In this document: positions 28,640 to 58,575 of the stretch, piece by piece
How positions within the stretch are numbered: the first letter of the stretch is position 1
How the letters are laid out: each line of letters starts with the position of its first letter
Assembly: GCF_003855095.1 (NCBI RefSeq)
Contig: NZ_CP033972.1
Span: 2,170,001 to 2,234,000 of the forward strand
Source: Gordonia insulae
GTDB lineage: Bacteria; Actinomycetota; Actinomycetes; Mycobacteriales; Mycobacteriaceae
Direction: 5' to 3'
DNA: 64,000 nt
Position numbers and translations under genes: made by a program
Notes under the pieces: model-generated
What the model was told of the DNA's origin: nothing
The model's database searches: none
Seen by the model: only the letters and a program-made list of their open reading frames with translations

Positions 28640-28655
28640 CTGACATAATCGTCAA
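28640..28655. promoter_or_regulatory. Operator-like palindrome, regulon II copy 1
   Basis: CTGACATAATCGTCAA, one mismatch from TTGAC-N6-GTCAA, followed by CTA as in copies 3 and 4. It lies 36 bases before the SDR start at 28691, so it would control the three-gene operon 28691-31686. Confidence 0.5.
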
Positions 28656-28690
28656 CTAATTATCACCGAACATGATTCTGGAGGACCACG

Positions 28691-29467
28691 ATGGTCGCGG
28701 CATTCGAGGAAGCATCGGCAATAGTCAGCGGCGGCGCGGGAGGACTCGGCGAAGCCGCGGTGCGCCGACTCCACGCTGAGGGGATGGCCGTGGTCATCGC
28801 CGACCTCGCCGAGGAGAAGGGCGAGCAGCTCGCGAAGGAACTCGGGGAGCGAGCAGCGTTCGTCAAGACCGACGTCACCAGCGAAGCGAGCGTTCTCAGC
28901 GCCGTCGAGAAGGCGAACGAACTCGGGCAGCTGCGCTACGGCGTCGTCGCACACGGCGGTTTCGGGGTGGCCCAACGAATGGTGCAGCGCGACGGCTCAC
29001 CCGCTGACCTCAGTGGGTTCACCAAGACGATCGATCTTTACCTCACCGGCACATACAATGTGGCCCGATTGGTGGCCGCGTCTGTCGCCACAGCACCCGA
29101 GCTTGCTTCCGGCGGGCGCGGAGCCCTGGTACTCACGGCGTCGATCGCAGGGTACGAAGGGCAGATCGGTCAGACGTCCTATGCGGCCGCGAAGGCGGGC
29201 GTGATCGGCCTGACCCTCGCCGCCGCGCGAGATCTGAGTTCGGTCGGGATCCGGGTCAACACCATTGCGCCCGGCACGATGAAGACTCCCATCATGGAGT
29301 CCGTCGGAGAAGAGGCCATTGCGAAGTTCTCCGCCAATGTGCCTTACCCGAAGCGGCTCGGCACACCCGAGGAGTTCGCCGATGCCGCGACGTTCCTCTT
29401 GACCAACGGGTACGTCAATGGCGAGGTACTGCGGCTCGACGGCGCTCAGAGGTTCCAACCCAAGTAG
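28691..29467 (+). CDS. Short-chain dehydrogenase, HSD10-like
   Basis: 258 residues. Nucleotide loop SGGAGGLGEA (13-22), Ser151 and the YAAAK pair Tyr164/Lys168, with the ASIAGYEGQIGQTSYAA region seen in 3-hydroxyacyl-CoA dehydrogenase type II. The usual NAG motif reads AHGG. It closely parallels the SDR at 9899-10660 and probably does the same chemistry in the second regulon. First gene of an operon with an isochorismatase-like protein and a ligase. Confidence 0.88.
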   Translation: MVAAFEEASAIVSGGAGGLGEAAVRRLHAEGMAVVIADLAEEKGEQLAKELGERAAFVKTDVTSEASVLSAVEKANELGQLRYGVVAHGGFGVAQRMVQRDGSPADLSGFTKTIDLYLTGTYNVARLVAASVATAPELASGGRGALVLTASIAGYEGQIGQTSYAAAKAGVIGLTLAAARDLSSVGIRVNTIAPGTMKTPIMESVGEEAIAKFSANVPYPKRLGTPEEFADAATFLLTNGYVNGEVLRLDGAQRFQPK

Positions 29468-29475
29468 CGCGCGAC

Positions 29476-30081
29476 ATGACAAATGGCGATGATTCATCGG
29501 CCGCGACGGCCGTACTGTGTGTGGAGTGCCAGAACGGCGTGCTCGGACCCGACGCCGTGTTACCGGCACTCGGCGCCGACTCGACGATCTTGGTCGACAC
29601 GCTCGCGCGTCTGCTCTGCACTGCGCGATCCAGTGGCATCCAGGTGATCCACGCGACGCACGAAGGCAACGTCGGCGCTCGAATACCCGGGACCGCACGC
29701 CTGTGGCGATCCCTGGGTCCCGCCACTGCCCACTGGGAGCATGGGACCCCCGAAACGCAGGTGGTGTCGGCGTTGTTCGACACGGTCGATCTCGTGGTCC
29801 CGCGCCATCACGGACTCTTTCCGACACTGGACACCGAACTGATCCCGGTGCTGCGTGGACACGGGATCGCGACGGTGGTTCTCGTCGGCGTATCCCTCAA
29901 CGTCGCACTACCTTTCACTGCTGGGCACCTGTCGCAGTCAGGGTTCCGGGTGGTGGTGCCACGCGACGCGGTCGCCGGCACGCCACCTGAATACGCCGAG
30001 ATGGCGCTGCGGCATTCGATCGCGATGGTTGCCGATCTGACCACAACCGACAAGCTGATCACCCGCTGGTCGTCTCGCTGA
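29476..30081 (+). CDS. Isochorismatase/cysteine-hydrolase-fold protein lacking the Asp-Lys-Cys triad
   Basis: 201 residues of the isochorismatase-like alpha/beta fold. The first catalytic position reads VECQN (Glu17 instead of Asp), the Lys position lies in VPRHHGLF with no Lys, and the Cys position reads GVSLNVALP (Ala144). Such a divergent subfamily may have another activity or a binding role. It starts eight bases after the SDR stop and precedes the ligase, so it belongs to that pathway. Confidence 0.75.
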   Translation: MTNGDDSSAATAVLCVECQNGVLGPDAVLPALGADSTILVDTLARLLCTARSSGIQVIHATHEGNVGARIPGTARLWRSLGPATAHWEHGTPETQVVSALFDTVDLVVPRHHGLFPTLDTELIPVLRGHGIATVVLVGVSLNVALPFTAGHLSQSGFRVVVPRDAVAGTPPEYAEMALRHSIAMVADLTTTDKLITRWSSR

Positions 30082-30129
30082 TTGCCCCCCCCGGACCACC
30101 AGCGATCACCTGGCACCAGGAGCACCGAA

Positions 30130-31686
30130 ATGACTCTCGACGTCTGTCTGGCAGACCTCGTCTCGGACAACGCCAGACGGTTCGGCGACCAACCCGCGTA
30201 CCTGGCCGACGGTCAGGTAAGGACGCACCGAGAACTCTATGAACGCGCCAACCGATTGACTGCGGCACTCGAGGCGCGGGGCCTCTGCCGCCAGGACCGG
30301 GTCGCCGTGTTCGGCCGCAATTCGATCCAGTTCGGCGAGGTCCTGGCCATGGGGCAGCTCAGCGGCATAGTGGTGGCCACGGTCAACTTCCGGCTTGCAC
30401 CCGCCGAGGTCGTCGCTATCCTCGCGGACGCAGCGCCACGCGTGTTGTTCGTCGACGCGGACTGCTATGCATCGGTGGCGGAGTTGCTGCCAACCCTCGG
30501 CTGCATCGAGGTCATCGTCGCGCTCGATCCGCTGGCGGGTACGACACCTGACGACTGCGAGGACTACGAGGACTTCCTGGCGTCCGCCGACGGCCGTTCG
30601 CGAACCCTTTGTGCGCGACCCGACGACATCGCCTGCCTGATCTACACGAGCGGCACGACAGGAAAACCCAAGGGCTGCATGCTTGGACAGCGCGGGTTGC
30701 ATCGTGTTGCGTTCACGACGAACAACGAGATGAGGACGGGCTCGTCCGATCGCGTGCTGTTGGTGATGCCGATGTTCCACATCGGCGCCATGGCGATCGG
30801 GCTCGCCCTCCACGCGCGCGGCGGCTGCTGTGTGCTGCGCAGACAGTTCGAACCCGCTGACGCACTCCACGTCATCGCATCCGATGACATCACCGCCCTG
30901 CATCTCGCGCCGACGATGCTCCAGGCACTTCTGGAGGAAGCCGACAGCAGGACCGATCACCGCCTGACCGGGGTGCGCGTCGTGGTCTACTCCGCCGCGC
31001 CGATCACGAGTTCGACACTCGCCGCGGCCATGACGGCGATGCCTGACGCCGGTTTCACCAACATGTACGGCCAGACAGAGGTCATCACATCGGGACTACC
31101 GTTCGAGTTCCACACCAGGGACAACGGCGAACGGTCGGTCCGCCGACTGTCGTCGGTCGGCATACCCTTCCCGGGCAACAGGGTACGCATCGTCGACGAC
31201 GACGGAGAAGACTTGCCGACCGGGACCGCCGGCGAGATCATCGTCCGCAGCGAGACCATGTTCCTCGGATACTGGAACAACTCGATCACCACCGCGGAGA
31301 CGATCCGAGACGGCTGGTGTCATACGGGCGACATCGGGATCGTCGACCACGACGGTCTGCTGCACCTCGTCGACCGAAAGAAGGACGTCATCATCTCCGG
31401 CGGAGAAAACATCTACTCACTCGAGGTCGAGGATGCGATCAGCGCACATCCGGATGTGGCCGAGTGCGCCGTCGTCGGAGTTCAGGACAAGCGGTGGGGC
31501 GAAGCGGTTACGGCCGTGGTGGTCCTGCGATCGAACGCTCGGCTCACCCTCGAAGGACTGAGAGAATACCTTGCGCCGACCCTGGCCCGCTACAAATTGC
31601 CCAGGTCTCTCCGCTCCGTCGGTGAACTGCCCAAGCTTCCCACCGGAAAGCTGGACAAGAAGGCGCTGCGCGCGACTCTGACGTGA
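30130..31686 (+). CDS. Acyl-CoA synthetase (AMP-forming)
   Basis: 518 residues. Phosphate loop IYTSGTTGKPKGCM, hinge segment DRKKDVIISGGENIYS and terminal LPTGKLDKKALR with the adenylation Lys: a complete ligase. The ATG at 30130 has AGGAG eight bases upstream. Last gene of the SDR operon. It resembles long- or medium-chain FadD and cyclohexane- or benzoate-type ligases; specificity cannot be read from sequence. Confidence 0.9.
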   Translation: MTLDVCLADLVSDNARRFGDQPAYLADGQVRTHRELYERANRLTAALEARGLCRQDRVAVFGRNSIQFGEVLAMGQLSGIVVATVNFRLAPAEVVAILADAAPRVLFVDADCYASVAELLPTLGCIEVIVALDPLAGTTPDDCEDYEDFLASADGRSRTLCARPDDIACLIYTSGTTGKPKGCMLGQRGLHRVAFTTNNEMRTGSSDRVLLVMPMFHIGAMAIGLALHARGGCCVLRRQFEPADALHVIASDDITALHLAPTMLQALLEEADSRTDHRLTGVRVVVYSAAPITSSTLAAAMTAMPDAGFTNMYGQTEVITSGLPFEFHTRDNGERSVRRLSSVGIPFPGNRVRIVDDDGEDLPTGTAGEIIVRSETMFLGYWNNSITTAETIRDGWCHTGDIGIVDHDGLLHLVDRKKDVIISGGENIYSLEVEDAISAHPDVAECAVVGVQDKRWGEAVTAVVVLRSNARLTLEGLREYLAPTLARYKLPRSLRSVGELPKLPTGKLDKKALRATLT

Positions 31687-31758
31687 GCAGCGCGCATTCT
31701 GACGCAGCGCCCGAGTCCGCTGATCCGTATCCTCTCGACAAGTGCGAAATGATCTCCT

Positions 31759-31793: not shown

Positions 31794-32873
31794 TCAGCGG
31801 GCAGCGAGCAACTCGGCCAGACGTTCCCGATGGTCCGCAGCGTCACCGAAGGTCACGGCCAGGGTGCGCGCCCGCCGGAGGAGCAGATGTGCGGGATGCT
31901 CCCACGTGTAGCCGGTGCCTCCGAGGATCTGGATCAGCAGTTCGGTTGCCAGAGGGCACTGTTCAGACGTCCATGCCTTGGCGATCGCGGCGGTGACGGC
32001 GAGCTCGTCCGGCCTGTCGTCGGCGGACGCTGCTGCGGCTGCGGTCGCGGCCCGTGAGCTCTCGACAATGGTGAGCATGTCCGCGCACAGGTGCTTGACG
32101 GCCTGGAAAGAACCGATCGGCCTCCCGAACTGCACTCGGGTTTGCGCGTACTCGACTGCCATGGTCATGGCTCGATCAGCCAACCCGGTCAGTTCAGCCG
32201 AAGCGGCCACCGCCCCGAGGTGTCCCAGACGCGCCACCAACTCGGTCTGGTCTCCACCAAGCCGGATCGCCGGGGCGGCGTCGAACCGCACGCGAGCGAT
32301 GGTGCGGGTCAGGTCGATTCCCTCATACGGCTCGATCGTGACCTGGTCGGCGTCCACCAGGAGAAGTGCGGTCTCCCCGTCCAGCGCGACGCTCACCACA
32401 AACGACCCCGCCAGCGTCGCATCGAGCACAAGCTCCTTGGCGCCGTTGAGCTGCCAACAGGTATCGACGCGCGTGGCCGTCACCGGCATGTCCGGGTCAT
32501 CGTCGAGACACAGCGTCGCGATCAGCGAACCCGACGCCAGCCGGGACAAGAACGCTGCGCCCTCACCTGATTCCTTGATCGCGATGGTCGCCAGCACGGA
32601 GCTACTCAGGAACGGCTGGGCGAACAAGACCCGTGCGGTCTCCTCGAGAACGACGGCGGCCTCGGTCACGCCGAGGTCTTGTCCGCCCTCCGACGCGGGT
32701 ACGACCAGCCCGGGTAGACCGATCTCGCCCGACACCCGCGCCCACGTCGCGTCGTCGAGCTTGTCGCCGGCACCCACACGAGTCTCGGACGAGAGCGGCG
32801 GGTACACGGATTCGAGGAAATCGCGTACTGCCGAGCGCAGCTCGCGCCGTTCGGCCTGCGTTGTCACGGGCAT
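31794..32873 (-). CDS. Acyl-CoA dehydrogenase, catalytic-Glu subunit
   Basis: 359 residues. C-terminal GGTGYTWEHPAH gives a catalytic Glu at about 325, while the SEPxxGSD motif of the middle domain is missing. The region QFGRPIGSFQAVKHLCADM is well conserved. The ATG at 32873 follows the stop of the partner ACAD by four bases, with AAGGAG seven bases upstream inside that gene. It should assemble with the upstream gene product. Confidence 0.88.
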   Translation of the reverse strand: MPVTTQAERRELRSAVRDFLESVYPPLSSETRVGAGDKLDDATWARVSGEIGLPGLVVPASEGGQDLGVTEAAVVLEETARVLFAQPFLSSSVLATIAIKESGEGAAFLSRLASGSLIATLCLDDDPDMPVTATRVDTCWQLNGAKELVLDATLAGSFVVSVALDGETALLLVDADQVTIEPYEGIDLTRTIARVRFDAAPAIRLGGDQTELVARLGHLGAVAASAELTGLADRAMTMAVEYAQTRVQFGRPIGSFQAVKHLCADMLTIVESSRAATAAAAASADDRPDELAVTAAIAKAWTSEQCPLATELLIQILGGTGYTWEHPAHLLLRRARTLAVTFGDAADHRERLAELLAAR

Positions 32874-32877
32874 CGAC

Positions 32878-33981
32878 TCACTCCTTCGGCAAACCGAGCA
32901 CGCGCTCGGCCATGATGTTCTTGAGGACCTGCGTGGTGCCACCGGCAATGGTCAACGCGCGCCCGGTCAGATACTGCTTCACGGGATCAGGGTCGCGACC
33001 GAGAACCCCGTTGACCCCCGCCAGCGCCAGACGGGTCTCGTCCACCCGTTGACCGGTCTCACTCCACAGCAGCTTGATCACTGTTTGTTCGGCTCCCGGT
33101 TGTTCCCCCTCAGCCACCCGGGCCAGCATCTGTTCGCCCATGTTGGCCGCGACGAAAGTCTCGATGTAGCGCCGCACGAGTTCGTCGCGCAACGACGGAG
33201 CAGTTGTCGTTGCCAGGCGATCGTGCACAAGCGCGACAACGTCGCCGTGTTGTCGACGGGCGAGAGCGGCGATCGCCGAGCGCTCGTGGCCCAGCGTGGT
33301 CATGGTGACACGCCACCCTTGATTCTCCGGGCCGAGCAGGTTCTCCACCGGCACAAGAACATCGGTGAAGAACACCTCGGCGAACCCCTCCTCGCCGTTG
33401 ATCTGTCTGATCGGGCGGATGTCTATCCCGGGTGTCGACAGGTCAACCGTCAACGCCGAGATGCCCTTGTGCTTGGCCGCCTGCGGATCGGTCCGCACGA
33501 GCAACTCCATATGCGTGGCATGGGTGCCGTTCGAGGTCCAGATCTTCTGACCGTTCACCACGAAATGAGCGCCGTCGCGCACAGCCTTGGTGCGCAGCGA
33601 TGCGAGATCCGAACCGGCGTTCGGCTCGCTGAACCCCTGACACCACATCTCATCTCCGCTGAGGATCGCCGGCAGGTGGCTCTGTTGCTCCTCGTTGCCC
33701 CATGCGATGAGCGTCGGGCCGACATTGTTGATGCCGAGGACACCGGCGATGATCGGGAACCCCTCCGCGGCGAGCATCTCCTCGACCACCACCACCTCAT
33801 GCGGCTCGAGTCCCCGGCCACCGTGTTCCTCAGGCCAGGCGGGCGCCGCCCATCGACCGGTGTTCAGCGTGCGCTGCCAGTCGACACGGGCAGCCCATTC
33901 CGAGATGTCGTCCCATCGCTCCCGGAAACCTGGCACCTCCGACGCGAGGAATGCGCCGAACTCTTCTGCAACCGACATCAT
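32878..33981 (-). CDS. Acyl-CoA dehydrogenase, flavin-motif subunit
   Basis: 367 residues. WCQGFSEPNAGSDL (113-126) and NGQKIWTSNGTHA are intact, and the C-terminus ends GGTTQVLKNIMAERVLGLPKE, but the segment that should hold the catalytic Glu reads AGVNGVLGRDPD with no Glu. It is the complementary half of the downstream ACAD. AGAGGA precedes the ATG. A perfect palindrome lies 29 bases upstream. Confidence 0.9.
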   Translation of the reverse strand: MMSVAEEFGAFLASEVPGFRERWDDISEWAARVDWQRTLNTGRWAAPAWPEEHGGRGLEPHEVVVVEEMLAAEGFPIIAGVLGINNVGPTLIAWGNEEQQSHLPAILSGDEMWCQGFSEPNAGSDLASLRTKAVRDGAHFVVNGQKIWTSNGTHATHMELLVRTDPQAAKHKGISALTVDLSTPGIDIRPIRQINGEEGFAEVFFTDVLVPVENLLGPENQGWRVTMTTLGHERSAIAALARRQHGDVVALVHDRLATTTAPSLRDELVRRYIETFVAANMGEQMLARVAEGEQPGAEQTVIKLLWSETGQRVDETRLALAGVNGVLGRDPDPVKQYLTGRALTIAGGTTQVLKNIMAERVLGLPKE

Positions 33982-34009
33982 TGTTCCTCTCAGCTCGAGA
34001 TCATTGATA

Positions 34010-34024
34010 TCACCAAATTGGTGA
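34010..34024. promoter_or_regulatory. Near-perfect 15-bp palindrome between the ACAD pair and a CoA transferase
   Basis: TCACCAAATTGGTGA, symmetric on both sides of one central base, in the divergent region between the ACAD operon (minus) and the CoA-transferase operon (plus). Probable operator, distinct from the motifs of regulons I and II. Confidence 0.5.
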
Positions 34025-34231
34025 CAACACCGTTAGAACCTCGCTACGATGCTTCATGTAGAGCAGTTCCGGTGACAGAAGTCCGACGCTCGCAGAGTAT
34101 GTGAACACTCCACCAAGCCGAGTGCGAGTGGCTCGAAGACCATGCGACACCGGCGTCAGATCTTCTGTCGGCATTCCACACCGCCAACCCCGTGAACAGA
34201 TTGCTCGTCGAGACAGTAACCGAAAGGACAT

Positions 34232-35458
34232 GTGGTGACCGGAGTAATGGACGGCGTCAAGGTCGTCGAATTGGCGGGCTGGACATTTGTGCCGACAGCG
34301 GGCGCGGTGCTCGCCGATTGGGGCGCCGACGTCATCAAGGTGGAAGATCCGGTGACCGGCGATCCGCAACGCGGACTGTCGGTCGGTGCGGTGGGCGCGA
34401 AGGGCGCCAATGGTGTCAGTTTCATCATCGAGCAGCCCAACCGCGGAAAGCGCAGTCTCGGACTGGATGTGACGACCGAACGGGGGCGCGAGTTGTTACT
34501 CGAGCTCGTCGCGAAATCGGATGTCTTCCTGACCAGCATGTTGGCGGAACGATTGGAGAAGCTGCGCCTCACCGTCGAGGACCTCCGCGCCGCGAATCCG
34601 CAGATCATCATCGCGCGCGGCACCGGTTTCGGCGTGAAGGGTGCCGAGGCCAACAAGCCGGGCTTCGATGGCACGGCATACCTGTCACGAGGCGGAGTCG
34701 CCCACATGATCAAGGAACCCGACGCACCGTGGCCCCCCATGCAACGCCCCGCCTTCGGCGACATCATGGGCGGGTTCATGATCGCCTCTGGTATTGCAGG
34801 CGCCTTGTTCAAACGTGAACGGACCGGCGAGACGTCGATCGTCGACGTCTCACTTCTCGGTGCGGCGGCCTGGCACATCTCCCCGGATCTGGTGGCCACC
34901 GGCCTCCTGGGCGAGGAGAACCTGCCACGCTTCACCACCGACGACATGCCGAACCCGATCGTCAACTACTACAAGACTTCCGACGGACGCTTCGTCCAGC
35001 TGATGATGCTGCAGGCCGACCGGTTCTGGCCGGAGGTGTGCGAGCTCATCGAACGCCCCGAACTGATTGCCGACGAGCGCTTTGCCGATGCGGGTGCCCG
35101 ATTCCAGAACCGCGTCGAGTGTGTGAACGAACTGCGCAAGGCCTTCGAGGCCCGACCGCTGGCGGAGTGGCGCGAGCGGATGGACAAGCTCAAGGGCGCA
35201 TGGGCCGTCGTACAGACGCCCGGTGAGGTCCTCGAGGATCCACAGGTGATCGCCAACGGCTACATCCGCCCGGTCACCACTGCCGATGGCTCGGCCACCT
35301 ATGGTCTGGTCGCGAACCCCGTCCAGTACGACGAGACGCCTCCCGATCTCACCCGTGCGCCGTCGGCCGGCGAACACACCGACGCCATTCTGCAGGAGGA
35401 ACTGGGCCTCGACTGGGACGCTGTCATCGCGTTGAAGGTCGATTCGATAGTCACCTGA
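34232..35458 (+). CDS. Class III CoA transferase (CaiB/BaiF)
   Basis: 408 residues, single-domain length. VKVVELAGWTFVPTAGAVLADWGADVIKVE at the N-terminus, LDVTTERGRELLLELV in the Rossmann part and FGDIMGG with Asp177 at the aspartyl-thioester position. It transfers CoA between carboxylic acids. GTG at 34232 or 34235; AAGGA upstream fits 34235 slightly better. Followed 46 bases later by a double-length relative, so the two may form one complex. Confidence 0.88.
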   Translation: MVTGVMDGVKVVELAGWTFVPTAGAVLADWGADVIKVEDPVTGDPQRGLSVGAVGAKGANGVSFIIEQPNRGKRSLGLDVTTERGRELLLELVAKSDVFLTSMLAERLEKLRLTVEDLRAANPQIIIARGTGFGVKGAEANKPGFDGTAYLSRGGVAHMIKEPDAPWPPMQRPAFGDIMGGFMIASGIAGALFKRERTGETSIVDVSLLGAAAWHISPDLVATGLLGEENLPRFTTDDMPNPIVNYYKTSDGRFVQLMMLQADRFWPEVCELIERPELIADERFADAGARFQNRVECVNELRKAFEARPLAEWRERMDKLKGAWAVVQTPGEVLEDPQVIANGYIRPVTTADGSATYGLVANPVQYDETPPDLTRAPSAGEHTDAILQEELGLDWDAVIALKVDSIVT

Positions 35459-35504
35459 GTCCGCGCACGATCCCGTCGCGTTTGTCACCGCCCAGGAGGT
35501 CTTG

Positions 35505-37785: not shown

Positions 37786-38370
37786 TCAGGCGAGGAACCG
37801 GCACACAAGTTCCACAATGGCCTCGACAACGCGCTCACGATCCGGTGACGGCAGACGCTGGTGATCGACGACGGACCAGGAGCGCTCCAGCATCGCCATC
37901 ACCGCGGTGCCCACCGCCTGTGGGTCCGCCTCCGATGCAGTCGCCGACGCATCGAGAACCGCTTGTCCCAATGCGGTCACGACGCGGCGTTGCGAACGTG
38001 CAACCGATTGTCTGAACCCGGCGTCCGGCGGTAGATCCCCTTCCGCGCGTAGGACAAAAGCGCCGCTTCGATCGAGGTACGCGAAGTAGCGAAGCACCCA
38101 GGACCGGACTGCCTCGCGTGATGGCTGACCACCCTCGTCGCGAAATGCACTCACCACAGCCATCGCCTCGTGGCGGGTGGACGTGCCGAGTTCGATGAAC
38201 AGCGCGGTCTTGTTCGCGAAATAGTAATAGAAATTCGCTCGCGTGACGTGCGCCTGCTCGGTGATGTCACCGATAGTTGTCCCGGAGAAGCCTTTTCGCG
38301 TGAAAACTGTTCGCGCCGCATCGAGGATGGCAAGTCTTGTTCGATCAGCTTTGGGGGTCTTCTCGGCCAC
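37786..38370 (-). CDS. TetR-family transcriptional regulator (paralogue of the one at 42388)
   Basis: 194 residues. Helix-turn-helix about 10-56 with AILDAARTVFTRKGFSGTTIGDITEQAHVTRANFYYYFANK; ligand domain follows. The GTG at 38370 has AGGAAGG five bases upstream; an ATG at 38409 is less well placed. It resembles the regulator at 42388-43050 along its whole length (AVVSA, RSWVLRYF against RGWVQSYF, MLERSW against MVERTW, HQRLP against HVRHLP), so they are paralogues. No regulon II site is seen at its own promoter. Confidence 0.87.
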   Translation of the reverse strand: MAEKTPKADRTRLAILDAARTVFTRKGFSGTTIGDITEQAHVTRANFYYYFANKTALFIELGTSTRHEAMAVVSAFRDEGGQPSREAVRSWVLRYFAYLDRSGAFVLRAEGDLPPDAGFRQSVARSQRRVVTALGQAVLDASATASEADPQAVGTAVMAMLERSWSVVDHQRLPSPDRERVVEAIVELVCRFLA

Positions 38371-38511
38371 GCCACCCTTCCTCGGTTCACCGCTGTCCCT
38401 CCCGACCACAGCGTCGGTACCCTCAGCCTACCGAGACGGCTCGGACCGGGATCTCGAGATCGCGTGGAACACACCCGCGGCCACGGAACGGCCGCTGACT
38501 TTCTCCGCAGG

Positions 38512-48167: not shown

Positions 48168-48187
48168 CCAGTGAACCGGGAGGACAC

Positions 48188-49435: not shown

Positions 49436-50556
49436 GCGAGCACAGCATCAGTGCCGAGGAACTCCAGGATCTGCGTTCAACGGTGCGCGACATCCTCGCC
49501 GAACGCTGTGACGACTCCGCGGTCCGGGCTGCGGTGCAGACCGAGCGGGGCTTCGATGATTCGCTCTGGCGGCTGTTGGCGAGCGACATCGGAGTACACG
49601 CGTTGGCGATGCCGAAAGAGTTCGGCGGAGACGGTTTCGGGCTGACCGAACTCGGCGTGGTCCTGGCGGAGATGGGCGCCGCACTGATGCCCGGTCCCTT
49701 CCTGTCATCTGTCGTCGTCGCCGGTAGCGCTCTACTGGCATCGGGTGACAGCGCGGCCCAGGCCACGCACCTACCGCGCATCGCGGACGGATCCACCATC
49801 GCCACTCTGGCCGTGGTCGAGTGCGACGGCTTATGGCGCACAGAGGGTTTCGCTGTAGCCGGTGAGGCGGACGGTTCGGGTTGGGTCATCACCGGCCAGA
49901 AGGCCTTGGTGCCCGATGGCGACGCCGACCTCATCCTGGTCGCCGCGACGACGCCGGCCGGGCCGTCGCTGTTCGCCGTCGAGGCAGGGGCAGCCGGATT
50001 CTCGCAGACACCGCTTCGAACTCTCGACATCACCCGGCCGATCTCGCGATTGTCCTTCGACCGAACACCCGCGGTCCTCGTCGGTGCACAGGGCGATGCA
50101 TCGCGAATCCTGGCCGCAGTACTCGACCGGTCCACTGCTGCCCTCGCCGCTGAGCAGGTCGGCGCCGCCAGGACGTGTCTGACGATGAGTGTGGCCTACG
50201 CCAAGGAGCGTGAGCAGTTCGGCCGCAAGATCGGTTCGTTCCAAGCGGTGAAACACAAACTCGCGGACATGTTCGCGCGGGTCGCTCTTGCCGACGCCGC
50301 CGCGACCGAGGCGCTACGTGCGGCCGATGGTCACGACGACGCGCCGCTACCGGCCGAGGCAGCTGCCGTGGCGCATTCGGTGTGTTCGGACGCGTTCATG
50401 TTCGTGGCCGCGGAGACCATTCAAGTGCACGGCGGGATCGGATTCACCTGGGAGCACCCGGCACACCTCTACTTCCGGCGAGCCAAGGCTGACCAGTTGA
50501 TGTTCGGGGGCCCGTCGGTTTATCACGAGCGACTACTCGATCAGATCGGTGTGTAA
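49432..50556 (+). CDS. Acyl-CoA dehydrogenase, catalytic-Glu subunit
   Basis: 374 residues. GGIGFTWEHPAHLYFRRAK gives catalytic Glu341; QFGRKIGSFQAVKHKLADM is conserved; SEPxxGSD is absent. Last gene of the five-gene operon 45269-50556 (hydratase and two heteromeric ACADs). Confidence 0.88.
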   Translation: MSEHSISAEELQDLRSTVRDILAERCDDSAVRAAVQTERGFDDSLWRLLASDIGVHALAMPKEFGGDGFGLTELGVVLAEMGAALMPGPFLSSVVVAGSALLASGDSAAQATHLPRIADGSTIATLAVVECDGLWRTEGFAVAGEADGSGWVITGQKALVPDGDADLILVAATTPAGPSLFAVEAGAAGFSQTPLRTLDITRPISRLSFDRTPAVLVGAQGDASRILAAVLDRSTAALAAEQVGAARTCLTMSVAYAKEREQFGRKIGSFQAVKHKLADMFARVALADAAATEALRAADGHDDAPLPAEAAAVAHSVCSDAFMFVAAETIQVHGGIGFTWEHPAHLYFRRAKADQLMFGGPSVYHERLLDQIGV

Positions 50557-50977: not shown

Positions 50978-52111
50978 TCAGGAAGCCGCACCGAGGATCG
51001 GCTCGAGCGGGTCGCGGCCCTCGTCGAAGACGAGGTCGGCCAGCCGCGCGACCTCGGCATCCATCCCGCCCGCCAGCAGCTGCGTGGCTTTCGCCCTCTT
51101 GAGGAAGAGCTGCGGCAACGCCTCCGCGGTGAACGCGACGCCGCCGTGGATCTGCATGGTCGAGGCCGCCGCGTCGAAGCCCGCTTGCAGACAGTAGGCC
51201 GTCGCCGCCTCGGCGATCAGCCCGCGTTGCTCGGGCTGCTCGTCCCACGCTGCGAAAGCCGCTGCCACCGAGGCGGAGGCGGCCTGAGCTGCCACGAACA
51301 TGTCGGCGCAACGATGCTTGATCGCCTGGAAGCCGCCGATGGCACGGCCGAATTGCCTGCGGCTCTTGGCGTACTCCACCGAAAGGTCGAGGCAGGCGGC
51401 GATCTGCCCCGAAGCCTCCGCAGCCAGCGAGAGTCGGAGCAGCGCTCGGGCGTCGTCGAGCACCCGATCCACCTCGGCGATCTTCAGTGGTTCCCCCGAC
51501 ACGTGGTCGAACCGCATCTGCACCACCGGTCGCGTCTCATCGAGGCAAGGAAGTTCCTCGATCACCAGCCCCGGCGAATGAGCATCAACCAGGACGACGA
51601 CCGACTCACCGCCTCGGGTGGCGGTGACGAGAAGATCTGTCGCGAGGTCCCCGTCGATGACGGCAGCCTTGCTTCCGGTCACGGTGGGACCCCCCGGACC
51701 GTTCTCGAGCTCGGTGCGTGCCGCGCCGCGCACGTCGACGTCGGCAAAGGCCACCCGACCGACTCCCGCGGCCACGCCGGCGAGGACATCGGCAGCCCGC
51801 CCGGAGTCGTCGTGCCCCAACAGAAACGGAGCGACTGTCGCCGACGACAGGTACGCAGCGGGCAACAGTACTCGCCCAGCCTCCTCCAGGAGGATTCCCA
51901 ACGCCGTCGCACCGGCACCGGCCCCTCCGCGTTCCTCGGCGACCACGAGCCCCGGCAATCCCAATTCGACAAGCCGGTCGCGCAACTGCTCATCGCCACG
52001 ACGACCTTCGGTCACCAGGTGTCGGGTGGTCTCGACCGGGGCGACGCGCGCGAGCCCATCGCGAATCATCGTGCGGAACTCCACCTGCTCTTGGTCCGAC
52101 ATCAGTTCCAT
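50978..52111 (-). CDS. Acyl-CoA dehydrogenase, catalytic-Glu subunit
   Basis: 377 residues. GGVAFTAEALPQLFLKRAK gives Glu330 at the catalytic position; QFGRAIGGFQAIKHRCADM is conserved; SEPxxGSD is missing (VGRVAFADVDVRG instead). AGAGG lies about ten bases before the ATG at 52111. It is divergent from a flavin-motif ACAD only 99 bases away, which is the likely partner. Confidence 0.87.
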   Translation of the reverse strand: MELMSDQEQVEFRTMIRDGLARVAPVETTRHLVTEGRRGDEQLRDRLVELGLPGLVVAEERGGAGAGATALGILLEEAGRVLLPAAYLSSATVAPFLLGHDDSGRAADVLAGVAAGVGRVAFADVDVRGAARTELENGPGGPTVTGSKAAVIDGDLATDLLVTATRGGESVVVLVDAHSPGLVIEELPCLDETRPVVQMRFDHVSGEPLKIAEVDRVLDDARALLRLSLAAEASGQIAACLDLSVEYAKSRRQFGRAIGGFQAIKHRCADMFVAAQAASASVAAAFAAWDEQPEQRGLIAEAATAYCLQAGFDAAASTMQIHGGVAFTAEALPQLFLKRAKATQLLAGGMDAEVARLADLVFDEGRDPLEPILGAAS

Positions 52112-52210
52112 TTATGGTCACCTCTTCTTATTTCTACAATAGACTTATATCATTGATTTCATCTGACTGACAGCGTGAAAAGATCAGCTCGAACCGCTAG
52201 GAGATAATCG

Positions 52211-53434
52211 ATGACGACTACCCGTCCCGGGGAGACACCAGGCTTCCGTGATGAGGTGATCGAGTTCCTGCGTGACGAACTCCCCACCGATTGGCAGGGC
52301 GTCGGCGCTCTTCCGGCCGGCGAACGTGAAGGCTTTGTCGCTTCGTGGCGCAAACTCGCCGGGTCCCGCGGATACCTGGCAGTCACCTGGCCAGAGGAAT
52401 ACGGCGGTCGCGGGCTCGGCAAGGTCGACCATCTTGTCGTGGTCGAGGAGTTCTCCCGCGCGAAGGTTCCGGTCGGCACACCCGGCGACACGGTCTCGAT
52501 CAAGATGCTGGGCAACACCATCAACAAGTGGGGCACCGACACGCAGAAGGCACAGATCCTCCCACGGATCATCTCCGGCGACGATGTCTGGTGCCAGGGA
52601 TACTCCGAGCCGGAGTCCGGATCGGACCTCTCGAGTCTGCGCACCCGCGCGGCGCTGCGCGGCGACGAGTGGCATATCGACGGCCAGAAGATCTGGACGT
52701 CCAACGCCGCCAACGCCAACTGGATGTTCTTGCTCGCGCGTACGGATCCCGCTGCCGCGCGGACCAAGGGCATCACCATGCTCATCATGCCCATGACACA
52801 GCCGGGTGTAGAGGTGCGTCCGATCACCATGCTGTCCGGCGCCAGCGACTTCTGCGAGGTGTTCTTCACCGACGCGGTGACCCCTGCGGCGAACGTGGTC
52901 GGATCTGTCAACGATGGCTGGGCCGTGGCCAATTCCCTTCTGACACATGAGCGGGGCGAAGAGGCCGCGGTGAATCCGGTCCTGTTTGCGCACGAGTTCG
53001 CGCGTGTCCTGGCGCTGGTCCGCGAGCGCGGCGCCGATCGCGACCCGGCCATTCGCGCGCGGATCACCCGCTCGTACACCGAACTGAGCGCGATGAAGGC
53101 GATGGGTGACCGGATACTCGATGCCTACATCCGGGACGGATCCCTGGGGCCCGCGGCATCGGTCTCCAAGCTGTACTGGAGTGAATACCATCAACGGCTG
53201 TCCTCGATCGCGGTCGACGTTCTCGGACAGGACGCCCTGTACTGGGTTGGCGACCCGCCCATGCGCTGGTTCCGCGCCGACGATCCGGGAGCGCCGAACA
53301 CCTCTGCGTCCTGGTTGTCGATTCACCTGCAGAATTCGTTGGCGGGCACCGTGTATGCGGGCACGTCGGAGATCCAACGCAACATCATCGCCGAACGTGC
53401 TCTCGGCCTCCCTCGCGAGTCGCGACAGTCCTGA
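52211..53434 (+). CDS. Acyl-CoA dehydrogenase, flavin-motif subunit
   Basis: 407 residues. WCQGYSEPESGSDL (127-140) and DGQKIWTSNAANA are intact, C-terminus AGTSEIQRNIIAERALGLPRE is typical, but the catalytic Glu segment is replaced by VLGQDALYWVGDPP. AGGAG is seven bases before the ATG. Partner of the divergent ACAD at 50978-52111. A compact hairpin terminator follows. Confidence 0.9.
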   Translation: MTTTRPGETPGFRDEVIEFLRDELPTDWQGVGALPAGEREGFVASWRKLAGSRGYLAVTWPEEYGGRGLGKVDHLVVVEEFSRAKVPVGTPGDTVSIKMLGNTINKWGTDTQKAQILPRIISGDDVWCQGYSEPESGSDLSSLRTRAALRGDEWHIDGQKIWTSNAANANWMFLLARTDPAAARTKGITMLIMPMTQPGVEVRPITMLSGASDFCEVFFTDAVTPAANVVGSVNDGWAVANSLLTHERGEEAAVNPVLFAHEFARVLALVRERGADRDPAIRARITRSYTELSAMKAMGDRILDAYIRDGSLGPAASVSKLYWSEYHQRLSSIAVDVLGQDALYWVGDPPMRWFRADDPGAPNTSASWLSIHLQNSLAGTVYAGTSEIQRNIIAERALGLPRESRQS

Positions 53435-53479: not shown

Positions 53480-54532
53480 TCACTTGACCAGAGCCGCCCA
53501 GGCACCATCGCCTTCACCCGGGACGAGTTGGCAGACCCGTAGGTCCCAATCACGCGTTGTGCCGTAGTCGTTGCGCCACGACAGCACCGGTTGGGTCAAT
53601 CCACGGAGCGGATGCTCGAGTGTCGTACCGATCGCACCATGTACCTGATGCGCATTACGAACAACGACGCCCGACGCTGTGCCGAGAACAGAGCGGGCGA
53701 TCGCAACCGCACGCTCCAGTTCGTCCAGGCTCTCGCCCGATCGGCCGAGTGAGGCAAGTGAGGTGAGGGCGGCATCCGTGGCGATGTGGGCGAGGGCCGA
53801 CTCTGCCGCAGCGTCGGCGACCAGATGTTGGACCGCCTGGAAACGCGCGAGCGGCCGGCCGAACTGGCGTCGCTCGGTGACGTGCCGGACGCACAGGTCG
53901 ATGATCCGGTCCAACGCTCCGGTGGCCTGTACCGCGCGCATCAGCGCAGCACGAAGAAAGAACTCCCTGGCCAGATCGGCACCGATGAGCGTCCCCACGC
54001 CTGCCGATGCTGTCATCGTCAACCGATCCCGCGGCCGGCCGGCCAGATCGGCGGCGGCCTCGAGCCGACATGAGGACACCGGGATGTCGGCGATCTGCCA
54101 GGCATCGAAGGCCGTGTCACCCGAAGGCCTCAGCACCAGTATCCGATCCACCTGGCTCGCCCACGGTACGGCACGGTCGGTGCCGTAAACATCAAGGCGC
54201 GCTATGGTTCTTATCCCGGATCCGCAGCTGATTCCCGCCCTTGTGGCGAGCAGCCCAGCCAACGCGTCATGCTCTGCGATCGGCAGCGGCACCGCGTATC
54301 GAGCAGCCGCTCGCAGCAGTTCCGCGACTGTCCACACGTCTGCGTCGTCCGCCGAGGCGAGGTCGGTCAAGCCGAGCTCATCCAACCTCGCCCACAGGTC
54401 GCGGTCGAGTTCGAGAACCACGCCCGGCGCGGGACGCCTCGAGTGCCAGTCGGCGAACACGTTGTCGAAGAGGTCGGCCACATCCGGGTCGACCCGGCCG
54501 GTATGTCTCGACGTCGGATGAAGCGAGGTCAT
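53480..54532 (-). CDS. Acyl-CoA dehydrogenase, catalytic-Glu subunit, diverged
   Basis: 350 residues. C-terminal GAIGTTLEHPLRGLTQ with Glu306, and QFGRPLARFQAVQHLVAD, identify the family; the N-terminal and middle domains are strongly diverged and no SEPxxGSD is seen. The ATG at 54532 overlaps the stop of the upstream ACAD by one base (TGATG). Last gene of the operon starting with the VOC protein at 58354. Confidence 0.82.
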   Translation of the reverse strand: MTSLHPTSRHTGRVDPDVADLFDNVFADWHSRRPAPGVVLELDRDLWARLDELGLTDLASADDADVWTVAELLRAAARYAVPLPIAEHDALAGLLATRAGISCGSGIRTIARLDVYGTDRAVPWASQVDRILVLRPSGDTAFDAWQIADIPVSSCRLEAAADLAGRPRDRLTMTASAGVGTLIGADLAREFFLRAALMRAVQATGALDRIIDLCVRHVTERRQFGRPLARFQAVQHLVADAAAESALAHIATDAALTSLASLGRSGESLDELERAVAIARSVLGTASGVVVRNAHQVHGAIGTTLEHPLRGLTQPVLSWRNDYGTTRDWDLRVCQLVPGEGDGAWAALVK

Positions 54533-55686
54533 CAGCGCATCCCCCAACCGCGGGCAACCACGCCCCGCAGGATCTCGTTTGTGCCGCCCCGCAGAGTGAA
54601 TCCCGGACGCTGGGCAAGGGCGTCGGCGGTCAGCTCACGCACCGGCTCGCCGAGTGGAGACGAACCAGCGTCAAGTCCGTACGACCCGGCCAGTTCAGCG
54701 ATATCACCCTCGTGCGTGGTGCCAAGGATCTTCGTGATGGCCGCGGCGAGGTCCACCGACTCGCCGCGTGTGAGACCATCGGCGATGGCAGCGGAGAACT
54801 CGTGTAGAGCTGCCGTTCGTGCCAGTGAACGCCCCAGTTGCGCAGTCGTTTCCAACGTCCCGTCGGCGACGGCTCGCGCCATGGCGGCCAGCAACGGGAA
54901 CGTACTCAGAAAGCGCTCCGGTCCACTGCGCTCGTAGCCCAGTTCCGATGTCACCTGCTCCCAACCGGCGCCGATGGTGCCGAACACCCACTCGTCGGGA
55001 ACGTGAACCTCGTCGAGATAGACCTCGTTGAAGTGGTGCCTGCCGTCGAGGGAGAGAATCGGTCGGATCCGCACCCCCGGCGCGCGGAGATCAACGATGA
55101 ATTGGCTGAGCCCGCCGTGTCGGTCCCCCGGGTCCACCGCAGCCGTGCGCGCGAGGACGATGAAGTAGTGCGCCCGGTGCGCGCCGGACGTCCAGACCTT
55201 CGCTCCTTGGAGCAGCCAACCATCATCGCAACGGGTGGCACGGGTCCGGACCGAGGCCAGGTCGGAACCGGAGTCGGGCTCACTCATTCCGATCGCGAAA
55301 TAGGTTTCACCGGAAGCAATTCCGGGGAGCAACGCGTGTTTCTGGAACTCGGTGCCGTACTTGAGCAGCGACGGCGCGATCTGCCGGTCCGCGATCCAGT
55401 GGGCGGCGAGGGGGGCTCCGGCGGCGAGCAGTTCCTCGGTCACCACGAACCGCTCGAGGAAGCTCTGACCTCGGCCACCGTAGTGTACCGGGATGGTCAT
55501 TCCCAACCAGCCACGCTCGGCGAGCGAACGACTGAAGTCCTCGTCCCAACCGGTGAGCCAACTGTCGACCTGGCCGACGAACCGCCCGGCCGCGGTCTCC
55601 TGCGAGATGAACTCGCGTACCTCTCGTCGGAGATCGCCCATCGCCTGGTCCTCGTCGACCGCCGACGGCATCGCGGGACGATTCAT
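54532..55686 (-). CDS. Acyl-CoA dehydrogenase, flavin-motif subunit
   Basis: 384 residues from the ATG at 55686. GMSEPDSGSDLASVRT (133-148) and QGAKVWTSGAHRA are present, and the C-terminus reads RGGTNEILRGVVARGWG; no catalytic Glu motif (AGSYGLDAGSSPLG in its place). An in-frame ATG at 55782 would add an Arg-rich, non-family tail, so 55686 is preferred although its ribosome site is weak. It should pair with the next gene. Confidence 0.85.
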   Translation of the reverse strand: MNRPAMPSAVDEDQAMGDLRREVREFISQETAAGRFVGQVDSWLTGWDEDFSRSLAERGWLGMTIPVHYGGRGQSFLERFVVTEELLAAGAPLAAHWIADRQIAPSLLKYGTEFQKHALLPGIASGETYFAIGMSEPDSGSDLASVRTRATRCDDGWLLQGAKVWTSGAHRAHYFIVLARTAAVDPGDRHGGLSQFIVDLRAPGVRIRPILSLDGRHHFNEVYLDEVHVPDEWVFGTIGAGWEQVTSELGYERSGPERFLSTFPLLAAMARAVADGTLETTAQLGRSLARTAALHEFSAAIADGLTRGESVDLAAAITKILGTTHEGDIAELAGSYGLDAGSSPLGEPVRELTADALAQRPGFTLRGGTNEILRGVVARGWGMR

Positions 55687-55791
55687 CCGACGACCCCCGC
55701 GGCCGCTACCGCCCAGGCTTCGCCGCCTCGGGTGTGCCAGGGGTCGGCCGACAGCTGCTGTCGCGCCGCCCTGACGCTGCACGCACCCATG

Positions 55792-56943
55792 TCAGGTCGA
55801 CAGAATCGTCACGGCCGCGGTACCCGGGGCTCCGTACAGCTGGGCGTAAGCGACAGTCGCGCCGTCGACCTGCCGGTCCCCGCACCGTCCGCGCAGCTGG
55901 TTCGTGAGCTCCCAGATCTGGCGCAGACCCGAAGCCCCCACCGGTTCGCCGTTGGCGAGCAGGCCCCCGTCGGTGTTGATCGGCAGCGGACCGCCGATCT
56001 CGGTGGCGCCTTCCGCGATCAGCTTCTCCTGATCTCCGTCGACGCAGAAGCCGTTCTCCGCCATGTGAATGATCTCGGAAGCCGCATCGGTGTCCTGCAG
56101 CTGAATCACATCGACATCCCCCGGCTCTATCCCCGCTTGCTCGTAGGCGGCACGGGACGCGTACACCGTCGGAGAATCCTCGGATTCGAGCGGCAGCGAT
56201 GGCATCAGCAGTTCGAACGCCCCGTCACGGCGCGAGAACAACGTGCTCGCACGCAAATACACCGGCGTATCGGTGTATTTGTGCGCATCCTCCGCGCGGC
56301 AGAGCACCGCTGCCGCCGCACCCTCGTCGGGCCCGCAGTACATGTATTGGCGCAGTGGATAGTTCAGTACCGGGCTGGCCAGTATTTCCTCGACGCCGAG
56401 CTTCTTGTTACGCCACGCGACCGGGTTGACCGAACCATTGGCGAACGCTTTCGCTGCCACCTTGGCCAGGGTTGTCTCCGAGATGTCGTGGTCGTGCATG
56501 TAGCGCGTGGCTTTCATACCGAAGAAGTGGGTGGTGAGGAACAGACCGAGTTCGCCGTACCATTCCGGAAGCCCGGATACCGAGGGGTGGTCGGAGAACG
56601 CGCCGCGCGGATGTTTGTCGAGCCCGACGGCCACAGCGAGGTTGGCATCGCCGAGACGGAGCGCATTCGCCGCCTGCGCGAGAGTGTTGCCGCCCGATGC
56701 ACATCCGGTGAAGGTGGAACGTGCCGGTATTCCGGTCATTCCCAGCAGGCCGGTGATGGCCTCCGGGTTCTTGACCTCCATGCTCGATGCCCAGAGTACG
56801 TCGACGTCTTCCCATTTCGCACCCGCGTCGCCGAGCGCGTCGATGACGGCGTCCTCGCCCATCTCGAGTGCGGACTTCGACGGGTAACGGCCGAACGGAT
56901 GGAGTCCGACGCCGATGATCGCGATATCTGATGGAGTGCTCAT
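55792..56943 (-). CDS. Thiolase-fold protein of the SCP-x / lipid-transfer type
   Basis: 383 residues. Nucleophile Cys81 (TGCASGGNT) is present. The His of the classical GHPxGA motif is Glu333 (GEPVGASG), and the second Cys motif is replaced by AYAQLYGAPG. These changes match thiolase-like enzymes that work with a DUF35 partner, some of which are thiolases and some retro-aldolases of side-chain degradation. Its start overlaps the DUF35 gene (ATGA). Confidence 0.87.
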   Translation of the reverse strand: MSTPSDIAIIGVGLHPFGRYPSKSALEMGEDAVIDALGDAGAKWEDVDVLWASSMEVKNPEAITGLLGMTGIPARSTFTGCASGGNTLAQAANALRLGDANLAVAVGLDKHPRGAFSDHPSVSGLPEWYGELGLFLTTHFFGMKATRYMHDHDISETTLAKVAAKAFANGSVNPVAWRNKKLGVEEILASPVLNYPLRQYMYCGPDEGAAAAVLCRAEDAHKYTDTPVYLRASTLFSRRDGAFELLMPSLPLESEDSPTVYASRAAYEQAGIEPGDVDVIQLQDTDAASEIIHMAENGFCVDGDQEKLIAEGATEIGGPLPINTDGGLLANGEPVGASGLRQIWELTNQLRGRCGDRQVDGATVAYAQLYGAPGTAAVTILST

Positions 56944-57401
56944 ACGGAGGTTTCCTCACTTGTCACAGGGGCGAAGGCGTACATCATGGTCGGCGTGCCC
57001 TGGGCATTCCTGGCGAACGGGAGAATCACCAATTCCATCTCCTGCCCGATCATGAGTTTCTCCGGGTCCGGCTCGGTCAGCCGGGCTTGGACGCGCAGGG
57101 CGCCGGGCAGTTCGATGTAGCCAACGGTGAAGGGCTGGAAGGTCTTTGCGTCGTCATCGCCGGCGTACGGGGGTGAGGTGGGCCGGAATGCCTGAGTGGT
57201 GAACGTCCAGAGCGTTCCTCGACGCGGCAACTCCACACGCTCCTGCTCCTCGCGGACCCCGTTCACCAGTCGGTGACTCCGGTAGGGGAACGTCAGCTTT
57301 CCGTCCGATCCTTTCGCGGCGATGAGTGCGGGCCGCTCGGCCGGCCAGGTGAACAGATCGGGCGCCACCGGCACGGTCGCCTCGGCACTGGTCTGGGTCA
57401 T
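56940..57401 (-). CDS. DUF35 / OB-fold acyl-CoA-associated protein lacking the zinc ribbon cysteines
   Basis: 153 residues. The OB-fold half is recognisable (GTLWTFTTQAFRP, FTVGYIELPGALRVQARL, IGQEMELVILPFA), but the N-terminal zinc-ribbon half contains no cysteine at all, where relatives have two CxxC pairs. It should still bind the adjacent thiolase. Overlaps the thiolase gene by four bases. A better preserved homologue is at 63478. Confidence 0.82.
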   Translation of the reverse strand: MTQTSAEATVPVAPDLFTWPAERPALIAAKGSDGKLTFPYRSHRLVNGVREEQERVELPRRGTLWTFTTQAFRPTSPPYAGDDDAKTFQPFTVGYIELPGALRVQARLTEPDPEKLMIGQEMELVILPFARNAQGTPTMMYAFAPVTSEETSV

Positions 57402-57439
57402 CGGGGTCTCCTCTGGTCAAACGTGGAACAACAAGGGGG

Positions 57440-58354
57440 TCAGCATGGTTGGGTGGGTCTACGCACCTCGCTACGCGGACGGGAAACGAGCTCGACGACC
57501 GCGCCGTCGGGATCAGCCAGGAACAGCACGGTGAAGCCACCGGTCGGCGTATCGACCATCGGGATGAACACCGGTTCCGGGATGTCCGCGCCCAGATCCA
57601 GAAGGGCGTGGTGGGCCCGCACGACATCCTCGACCGCGAGCGCGATGCGATAGAGGCCGGCGGTGTTCGCATGCCAATCGGGCCTCACCGCGCCGGGATC
57701 ATGACGGAATTCGATCGAGAATGTGGGATCCTCGGCCGCGACGAGACTCAGCGCCCCCGCCGGTGCATTCGGGACGGGTTCGAAACCGAGCTGCTGCCAC
57801 CATGCGGCAGTGCGCTCGAGATCGCTGCTGACCAGCCGGACGTGAGAGAACTTGGCACCCTCGGGCTCATCGACGACCGCACTGGGATCGACCTGGATCA
57901 GCTCGACGGGGCCTCCGGCGGGATCCGACGCCATCCATGCGGTTACTCGTCGGCCCCGGACCACGACCTCGGTCATGTCGGTGACGCCCGGCGACAACGC
58001 TGCGGGCTGGGGCGTACGCAGACCGATGGCCTCGAACCCGAGTGTGTGGGACTTCGTTGCGACCTCCCGCGCGACCACGGGGGGCTCCCTCCAGCCGACG
58101 AGCTCGATTGCCGGCGCGGAGCGCGGCCCGCGACCGTCGTAGTGAAATGCGGTGGTGCTCGACGTGTGCTCGCCGAGTCCGAGGGGTCTGCCGTCCGTGT
58201 CGTCGGAGACCGACCGCATGCGCTCGACCAGGCCGAGGCGGGTCAGAAAGTCGGCGGATTCGGCCAGTACCGGAGTATTGACGTTGCAGTGCAGAACTGC
58301 ATGCACACGTCGGTCGAGGGCAGTCGTCTCGAGTTCGTGGTCACTGACGGTCAT
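57440..58354 (-). CDS. VOC-superfamily protein with two glyoxalase/extradiol-dioxygenase-type modules
   Basis: 304 residues in two vicinal-oxygen-chelate modules: one around VHAVLHCNVNTPVLAESADFLTRLGL, one around SHVRLVSSDLERTAAWWQQLGF and FTVLFLADPDGAVVELV, where His and Glu are likely metal ligands. It could be a ring-cleavage dioxygenase, isomerase or epimerase; the sequence does not decide. The ATG at 58354 has AGGAG nine bases upstream; an ATG at 58363 abuts it. First gene of the minus-strand operon; regulon II copies 5 and 6 lie upstream. Confidence 0.78.
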   Translation of the reverse strand: MTVSDHELETTALDRRVHAVLHCNVNTPVLAESADFLTRLGLVERMRSVSDDTDGRPLGLGEHTSSTTAFHYDGRGPRSAPAIELVGWREPPVVAREVATKSHTLGFEAIGLRTPQPAALSPGVTDMTEVVVRGRRVTAWMASDPAGGPVELIQVDPSAVVDEPEGAKFSHVRLVSSDLERTAAWWQQLGFEPVPNAPAGALSLVAAEDPTFSIEFRHDPGAVRPDWHANTAGLYRIALAVEDVVRAHHALLDLGADIPEPVFIPMVDTPTGGFTVLFLADPDGAVVELVSRPRSEVRRPTQPC

Positions 58355-58424
58355 CGCGGTCATCTCCTACTCGCGTCCAAACCTCGACGTCCTCGACGCC
58401 GCTGGTTCAGCAGCCTAGAATAAC

Positions 58425-58440
58425 TTGACACTTGTGACAA
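58425..58440. promoter_or_regulatory. Operator-like palindrome, regulon II copy 5
   Basis: TTGACACTTGTGACAA, one mismatch from TTGAC-N6-GTCAA, 70 bases upstream of the VOC gene in the divergent region. Confidence 0.5.
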
Positions 58441-58559
58441 CTGTGTGCGACGCCATGCCGCTGCAGCGAGCCAGCCCCTTGACATAGCCCAGATTCGTCG
58501 AGAACGGTGCAGCACCCTCCCGGCGAAGCGGGTCGCTGATAGCTCCAATATGATGGCAT

Positions 58560-58575
58560 TTGACACTTTAGTCAA
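58560..58575. promoter_or_regulatory. Operator-like palindrome, regulon II copy 6
   Basis: TTGACACTTTAGTCAA, a perfect TTGAC-N6-GTCAA site 42 bases upstream of the hydratase start at 58618. Confidence 0.6.

Follow-up and report, generated by a model that had tools for sequence, protein, structure and literature searches.

The stretch of DNA analyzed here, called the window, comprises 64,000 nt of the single-contig, 5.96-Mb genome of Gordonia insulae (NZ_CP033972.1, positions 2,170,001-2,234,000; assembly GCF_003855095.1) and carries a large uncharacterized catabolic gene cluster in which copies of the palindrome TTGAC-N6-GTCAA lie between genes. From left to right, the genes beside these copies encode short-chain dehydrogenase/reductase (SDR), isochorismatase-like and acyl-coenzyme A (acyl-CoA) ligase proteins (28691-31686, + strand), a flavin/2Fe-2S reductase (38512-39480, - strand), a Rieske oxygenase with a KshA_C domain (39655-40731, +), a PF04909 'amidohydrolase' (40931-42142, -), a TetR-family regulator of 220 aa (42388-43050, +), a MaoC dehydratase and an acyl-CoA ligase (43026-45085, -), an enoyl-CoA hydratase followed by four acyl-CoA dehydrogenase subunits (45269-50556, +), a glyoxalase-like protein, a ChsH2-like DUF35 protein, a thiolase and two acyl-CoA dehydrogenases (53480-58363, -), and an enoyl-CoA hydratase, two SDR proteins, a CoA-transferase III, a thiolase and another ChsH2-like DUF35 protein (58618-63900, +). 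The starts of the reductase (39480) and of the 45-kb hydratase (45269) were set by eye at the ribosome-binding site, the longest open reading frames (ORFs) of both genes being such that they would cover the palindromes at 39510 and 45173. Taking all observations into account, the palindrome is best explained as the operator of the TetR protein encoded at 42388, a presumed repressor released by a pathway ligand, and the probability of this reading is put at roughly 0.85.

A scan of the window finds exact palindromes at 39510, 42206, 45173 and 58560, and copies at 28640 and 58425 that each carry one mismatch, reproducing the six coordinates and the division into four perfect and two imperfect copies given in an earlier description made from the letters of the DNA (the sequence-only reading). 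With the revised starts all six sites are intergenic, in agreement with the promoter placement proposed there; the divergent arrangement was also recognized correctly, with the count adjusted from four sites to five, which lie in four divergent regions. The putative operator at 28640-28655 (CTGACATAATCGTCAA, one mismatch, 27.5 bits in the matrix described below, rank 2) stands 35 bp before the first gene of the SDR-isochorismatase-ligase operon, with the preceding gene on the same strand. The exact candidate sites at 39510-39525 (TTGACAGTACCGTCAA, 26.8 bits), 42206-42221 (TTGACGAAAGTGTCAA, 27.7 bits, rank 1) and 45173-45188 (TTGACAAGTTCGTCAA, 26.9 bits) separate the divergent reductase and Rieske oxygenase genes, the amidohydrolase and TetR genes, and the MaoC-ligase and hydratase-acyl-CoA dehydrogenase operons, respectively, and the gap between TetR and amidohydrolase holds one site only. 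The gap at 58.4-58.6 kb, flanked by the glyoxalase-like gene on one side and an enoyl-CoA hydratase gene on the other, holds two putative sites 135 bp apart, each nearer to one of the genes: 58425-58440 (TTGACACTTGTGACAA, one mismatch, 21.7 bits, rank 6) is closer to the leftward glyoxalase-DUF35-thiolase operon and 58560-58575 (TTGACACTTTAGTCAA, exact, 27.1 bits) to the rightward hydratase-SDR-CoA-transferase-thiolase operon. The sequence-only reading also had no copy inside a gene, which is correct for exact copies and fails for one-mismatch copies, two of which (22833-22848 and 23340-23355) fall inside the EcKL/APH-like coding sequence (CDS) 22577-23674; these score 4.5 and 5.1 bits and look like chance copies.

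Exact copies of the pattern are concentrated in the cluster. The whole genome holds seven exact copies, four of them in the window, and the probability that at least four of seven would fall there under random placement is low (P ~ 5e-7). The other three all lie within ORFs with a third-position GC content (GC3) of 0.79, 0.83 and 0.76, one of which, holding the copy at 636057, we take to be the gene for ribosomal protein L19. Genome-wide placement was followed for exact copies and for copies with a mismatch at an outermost base, mismatches at the other four positions being counted only; among the 25 outermost-base copies, the site at 28640 is the only one without a covering ORF of at least 100 aa, although in a GC-rich genome an ORF of this length says little about coding. 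When up to two mismatches are allowed, 31 matches occur in the window versus 18.9 expected, a number reached by none of 100 shuffles. As a guard against choosing the pattern after the fact, all exact 5-base inverted repeats with gaps of 0-10 were counted across 30 intergenic gaps, each no shorter than 40 bp, that total 6183 bases and were extended by 30 bp per side, and TTGAC with a gap of 6 is the top repeat with four copies, the runners-up having two each. Comparison with the close relative G018, which is 98.4-99.2% identical to the host genome across the cluster, shows that the sites at 28640 and 39510 are kept and that the spacer of the 42206 site differs by two bases while both arms are retained.

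The palindrome recurs beside relatives of the 42388 TetR in other genera. From 84 TetR relatives in named bacterial genomes the best 80 were taken, giving 76 distinct loci with proteins 38-70% identical to the 42388 TetR and spanning Mycobacterium, Nocardia, Frankia, Williamsia, Pseudonocardia, Janibacter and others; the loci are not independent, since they include many mycobacteria that are close relatives of one another. In the 400 bp that precede the TetR match (380 bp in one locus), the palindrome is present at up to one mismatch in 59 of the 76 loci and in exact form in 45. Three scrambled patterns occur in 6, 6 and 0 loci, and of 1367 random 400-bp windows drawn from these loci 48 contain the palindrome. 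Over their full length the 76 loci contain 88 exact copies versus 10 of the reversed control. At least two sites of 14 bits or more lie within the upstream 400 bp in 39 loci, and the first two are 66-69 bp apart in 27 of these. The share of exact genomic copies that adjoin a TetR gene is 4/5 in G018, 8/13 in G093 (which has three TetR genes, these copies lying 20 kb or less from one of them), 2/5 in G049 (on the same contig), 1/1 in G026, 1/2 in G021 and 1/3 in G033. Judged by these sequence comparisons, the palindromes very probably form a genuine family of operators, and their assignment to this regulator is well supported.

A 22-base matrix was built from 77 upstream sites (65 distinct) of the 76 loci, with the window excluded and with the consensus TACTTGACAATATTGTCAAGTA, a training site qualifying if it had the core TGAC-N6-GTCA and kept one outer base or both. 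The six window sites take ranks 1-6 (27.7, 27.5, 27.1, 26.9, 26.8 and 21.7 bits), followed by matches of 15.4 and then 7.9 bits. In 20 mononucleotide shuffles of the window the best match is 18.8 bits (mean of the best 9.3), shuffles give 0.5 matches of at least 10 bits per window, and the 20 kb flanking the window on each side contain nothing above 4.7 bits. Sites of at least 18 bits number 145 in the 76 loci versus 4 with the complemented matrix, and 68 loci have at least one. In a Mycobacterium branderi plasmid absent from the training set, the region that separates the TetR and amidohydrolase genes carries two sites, of 26.9 and 22.5 bits; this locus (L131, record positions 9437-40624 of the 864-kb plasmid pJCM12687) also has cytochrome P450, MaoC and acyl-CoA dehydrogenase genes nearby. 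The 15.4-bit match lies at 46005-46020, at the end of the hydratase CDS and shortly upstream of the acyl-CoA dehydrogenase start (46063). The acyl-CoA dehydrogenase and CoA-transferase genes of the cluster at 31794-37733 and 50981-53431 show no matrix match above 4.1 bits and are therefore perhaps under other control.

The 42388 protein is assigned to the TetR family by its Pfam TetR_N domain (PF00440, 53.4 bits, cut-off 24) and its predicted fold, and is very probably the cognate regulator of the palindrome, because palindromes stand upstream of its relatives and because a matrix built from foreign sites ranks the six window sites first. The proposal of the sequence-only reading that this protein is the best candidate binder is thereby strengthened, as is its view that the sites mark a catabolic regulon, through their recurrence beside TetR relatives and at some target orthologues. 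The relatives comprise 442 proteins across Actinobacteria (the closest named one among the best 120 of the 442, from G. alkanivorans, is 89% identical), and the helix-turn-helix region is almost invariant in the family. Matches at E 1e-20 occur in 9 of the 101 genomes searched, host included, and the system is therefore patchy in the genus Gordonia. The predicted structure is an all-helical TetR fold with a mean predicted local distance difference test (pLDDT) score of 88.7, and its closest solved chains include EthR, DesT, FasR, FadR, BkaR and also QacR. Two of these, DesT and FadR, are in acyl-CoA-bound form, but EthR, QacR and AcrR score much alike, and the fold match therefore singles out no ligand.

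The cluster encodes a second TetR protein (37786-38409, -), 37% identical to the first and perhaps part of the reductase operon, and the sites could instead be bound by this protein or be shared between the two paralogues, leaving fewer targets to the 42388 protein. Its location in the same cluster, downstream of a reductase whose promoter has the 39510 site, would suit such a role. In loci L021-L099, where relatives of the 42388 TetR have the palindrome next to them, the second protein is the best match at one place only, with 28% identity, and it is therefore unlikely to be the conserved binder; its helix region also reads TRANFYYYF versus SRAGFYTYF in the 42388 protein. Either arrangement is considered improbable. 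The 42388 TetR is most likely an autoregulated repressor of a pathway degrading CoA thioesters.

Under this repressor reading, the operator core would be TGAC-N6-GTCA, its commonest form being TTGAC-N6-GTCAA inside ACTTGACA-N4-TGTCAAGT. A TetR dimer would occupy each site and block the flanking promoters, including its own, until the C-terminal domain takes up an intermediate of the pathway (probably an acyl-CoA) and the protein leaves the DNA. Five promoter regions would then fire together, supplying enzymes for CoA activation, for β-oxidation with paired acyl-CoA dehydrogenases and for thiolase/DUF35 cleavage, along with oxygenation by the Rieske enzyme and by the PF04909 protein, which resembles dinuclear-metal oxygenases.

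A number of observations weigh against the operator reading. The exact pattern is less frequent genome-wide than its reversed control (7 vs. 10 copies), as is the pattern at up to one mismatch (125 vs. 176). These counts would fit an origin of the palindromes as chance copies or as symmetrical -35 boxes, the half-site containing the sigma-70 -35 hexamer (TTGACA). The concentration of copies in the cluster, the recurrence of the same placement in other genera and the retention of both arms around a changed spacer at 42206 argue against this origin, which is regarded as extremely improbable, although single sites such as the weakest, at 58425, could be non-functional. Further points come from the other genomes. 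The upstream palindrome is missing at up to one mismatch from 17 of the 76 loci, and 8 loci lack any site of 18 bits or more over their whole length although the helix region is nearly the same; four of these eight, all from Frankia, retain TGAC-N6-GTCA with both outer bases changed, and the other four (Protofrankia, two Frankia and Pseudonocardia) have no evident site. No exact copy is present in the TetR-bearing Gordonia genomes G031 and G036; of the eight TetR-bearing genomes other than the host, seven have fewer copies of the exact pattern than of the reversed control, the exception being G093 with 13 vs. 2. Sites of a stricter pattern number 25 in the nine TetR-bearing genomes (control 17) and 84 in the 92 genomes without the TetR (control 127); a modest excess per genome is what would be expected if few sites per genome are real. 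Part of the power of the matrix also exists by construction, because its training sites were chosen on the core, while flanks and spacer were free.

The arrangement of the sites relative to promoter elements bears on whether the protein represses at all. With the TTGACA half-site taken as a -35 box, a -10 box with at least 4 of 6 bases at 16-18 bp is found in 1/41 and 2/41 cases, versus 6% and 10% in shuffles; the -10 box is not enriched, and the model in which the operator overlaps a -35/-10 promoter is therefore not supported. This lack of a -10 box at the expected distance, together with the spacing of the paired upstream sites, which at 66-69 bp approximates six helical turns, would be in keeping with an activator or with looping between paired sites. 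TetR proteins are, however, often repressors (PMC4482099), a single divergent promoter region contains two operators of the repressor BkaR (PMC3920632), and the TetR-amidohydrolase gap of the window has a single site. Activation or looping in place of simple repression is accordingly judged unlikely.

In the 76 loci, orthologues of the target genes sharing 45% identity or more were examined for the palindrome within 300 bp upstream at up to one mismatch, and here too some results speak against the proposed regulon in its full extent. Sites precede none of 15 SDR orthologues, none of 36 MaoC orthologues (control 1) and 1 of 6 glyoxalase-like orthologues, and the promoters behind the sites at 28640, 45173 (leftward) and 58425 are therefore not general targets. 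The second and third genes of the 28640 operon have sites of their own elsewhere (12/13 for the isochorismatase-like gene and 5/28 for the ligase; control 0), and G. hydrophobica has an exact site before its glyoxalase-DUF35-thiolase genes. The amidohydrolase is preceded by the palindrome in 50/50 orthologues, mostly in an intergenic region common with TetR, the 45-kb enoyl-CoA hydratase in 14/17 and the Rieske gene in 5/11, with a control of 0 in each case. Genes internal to operons in the window have no sites elsewhere either (0/17 for the 46-kb acyl-CoA dehydrogenase and 0/29 for the 55.8-kb thiolase).

The substrate of the pathway is indicated only in outline by the enzymes. No NCBIfam model listed for the regulon enzymes scanned (the best 25 models for some of them) reached its cut-off; the 30-kb ligase falls 1.5 bits short of a general ligase model, and the matches of the 46-kb dehydrogenase to the models for pimeloyl-CoA and cyclohexanecarboxyl-CoA dehydrogenases stay far under the cut-offs. 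The solved-structure matches of the regulon enzymes name no substrate. An alicyclic acid, terpenoid- or steroid-like, appears the likeliest substrate class, since it suits both the gene set and the weak matches to pimeloyl- and cyclohexanecarboxyl-CoA dehydrogenases.

The TetR regulators KstR and KstR2 control CoA-dependent ring and side-chain degradation in actinobacteria, where the genes likewise include ligases, acyl-CoA dehydrogenases and thiolase/DUF35 proteins. The six sites differ from KstR- and KstR2-type consensus patterns: at up to one mismatch the KstR pattern (TNNAACNNGTTNNA) has 6 matches in the window versus 6.0 expected, one of them exact (12555), and the KstR2 pattern (ANCAAGNNCTTGNT) has 1 versus 0.6 expected, with none of either on the six sites. 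The two candidates were rejected on these chance-level counts, which uphold the statement of the sequence-only reading that the motif is not that of KstR or KstR2. BkaR of mycobacteria (Rv2506/MSMEG_4718) is comparable: it too belongs to the TetR family, and a 16-bp palindrome stands in its own divergent promoter and before a few genes of CoA metabolism; the two BkaR operators in one divergent region resemble the paired upstream sites of 39 of the 76 loci (PMC3920632). Its operator is GTTA(N)T(N4)A(N)TAAC, its targets belong to branched-chain keto-acid metabolism and its binding is documented by electrophoretic mobility-shift assay (PMC3920632); the BkaR operator was set aside as its core differs from the six sites. 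A limited literature search did not find the motif strings, and the description of the regulon as previously unassigned rests on that search. In the 2015 survey of mycobacterial TetR motifs (PMC4482099), 11 motifs are given as logos, and the palindrome could be one of them. TetR regulons of this kind are common; the present one is broad and clearly tagged by its palindrome. The regulator-operator pair would allow pathway membership in this cluster and in its actinobacterial relatives to be read from the DNA, and would separate from the regulon those cluster genes that have no site, for example 31794-37733.

The most constant target of the proposed regulon, the PF04909 'amidohydrolase' at 40931-42142, is a candidate dinuclear oxygenase. 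Its solved relatives include PtmU3 (E 5.6e-11) and the AibH1H2 chains, the closest being 4dzi, which is annotated as a putative metal-dependent hydrolase. PtmU3 and AibH2 are dinuclear oxygenases within the amidohydrolase-related family (PMC10811679); the AibH2 ligands are D25, H27, H211, E265, D337 and H340, with the acidic residue at D342 kept only in binuclear members (PMC7782822). The window protein shares the PF04909 family and the metal ligands with these enzymes, its ligand signature being D13-x-H15, H228, E290, D353, H356 and E358, in which the last five residues align pairwise with PtmU3 and D13-x-H15 is placed by pattern only. The motif SDxPHxE is present in all 120 relatives listed (the best 120 of 5900). 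With the PF04909 fold and all listed ligands of the dinuclear members in place, the protein is likely an oxygenase and not a hydrolase. The roles known for the PtmU3 and AibH1H2 enzymes are in diterpenoid biosynthesis and aminoisobutyrate degradation (PMC7782822), which sets them apart from the window protein. The gene beside the regulator would thus be a likely oxygenase hidden under a hydrolase name. A more far-reaching and rather doubtful suggestion is that the TetR-operator pair, conserved across Gordonia, Nocardia, Frankia, Janibacter and Mycobacterium, governs a branch of alicyclic or terpenoid acid breakdown not described so far. The signature enzyme of that branch, in most cases encoded divergently from the regulator, would be a dinuclear-metal (TIM-barrel) oxygenase acting on CoA substrates; if true, genomes could be searched with the operator as a tag for an entire class of oxygenase pathways that are still unassigned. 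A second PF04909 protein of the window (24864-26117) has IDFPHSD at the signature position (DFPHxD); its orthologues have the palindrome upstream in 1 of 21 cases and a TetR relative nearby in four mycobacterial loci and in G. hydrophobica.

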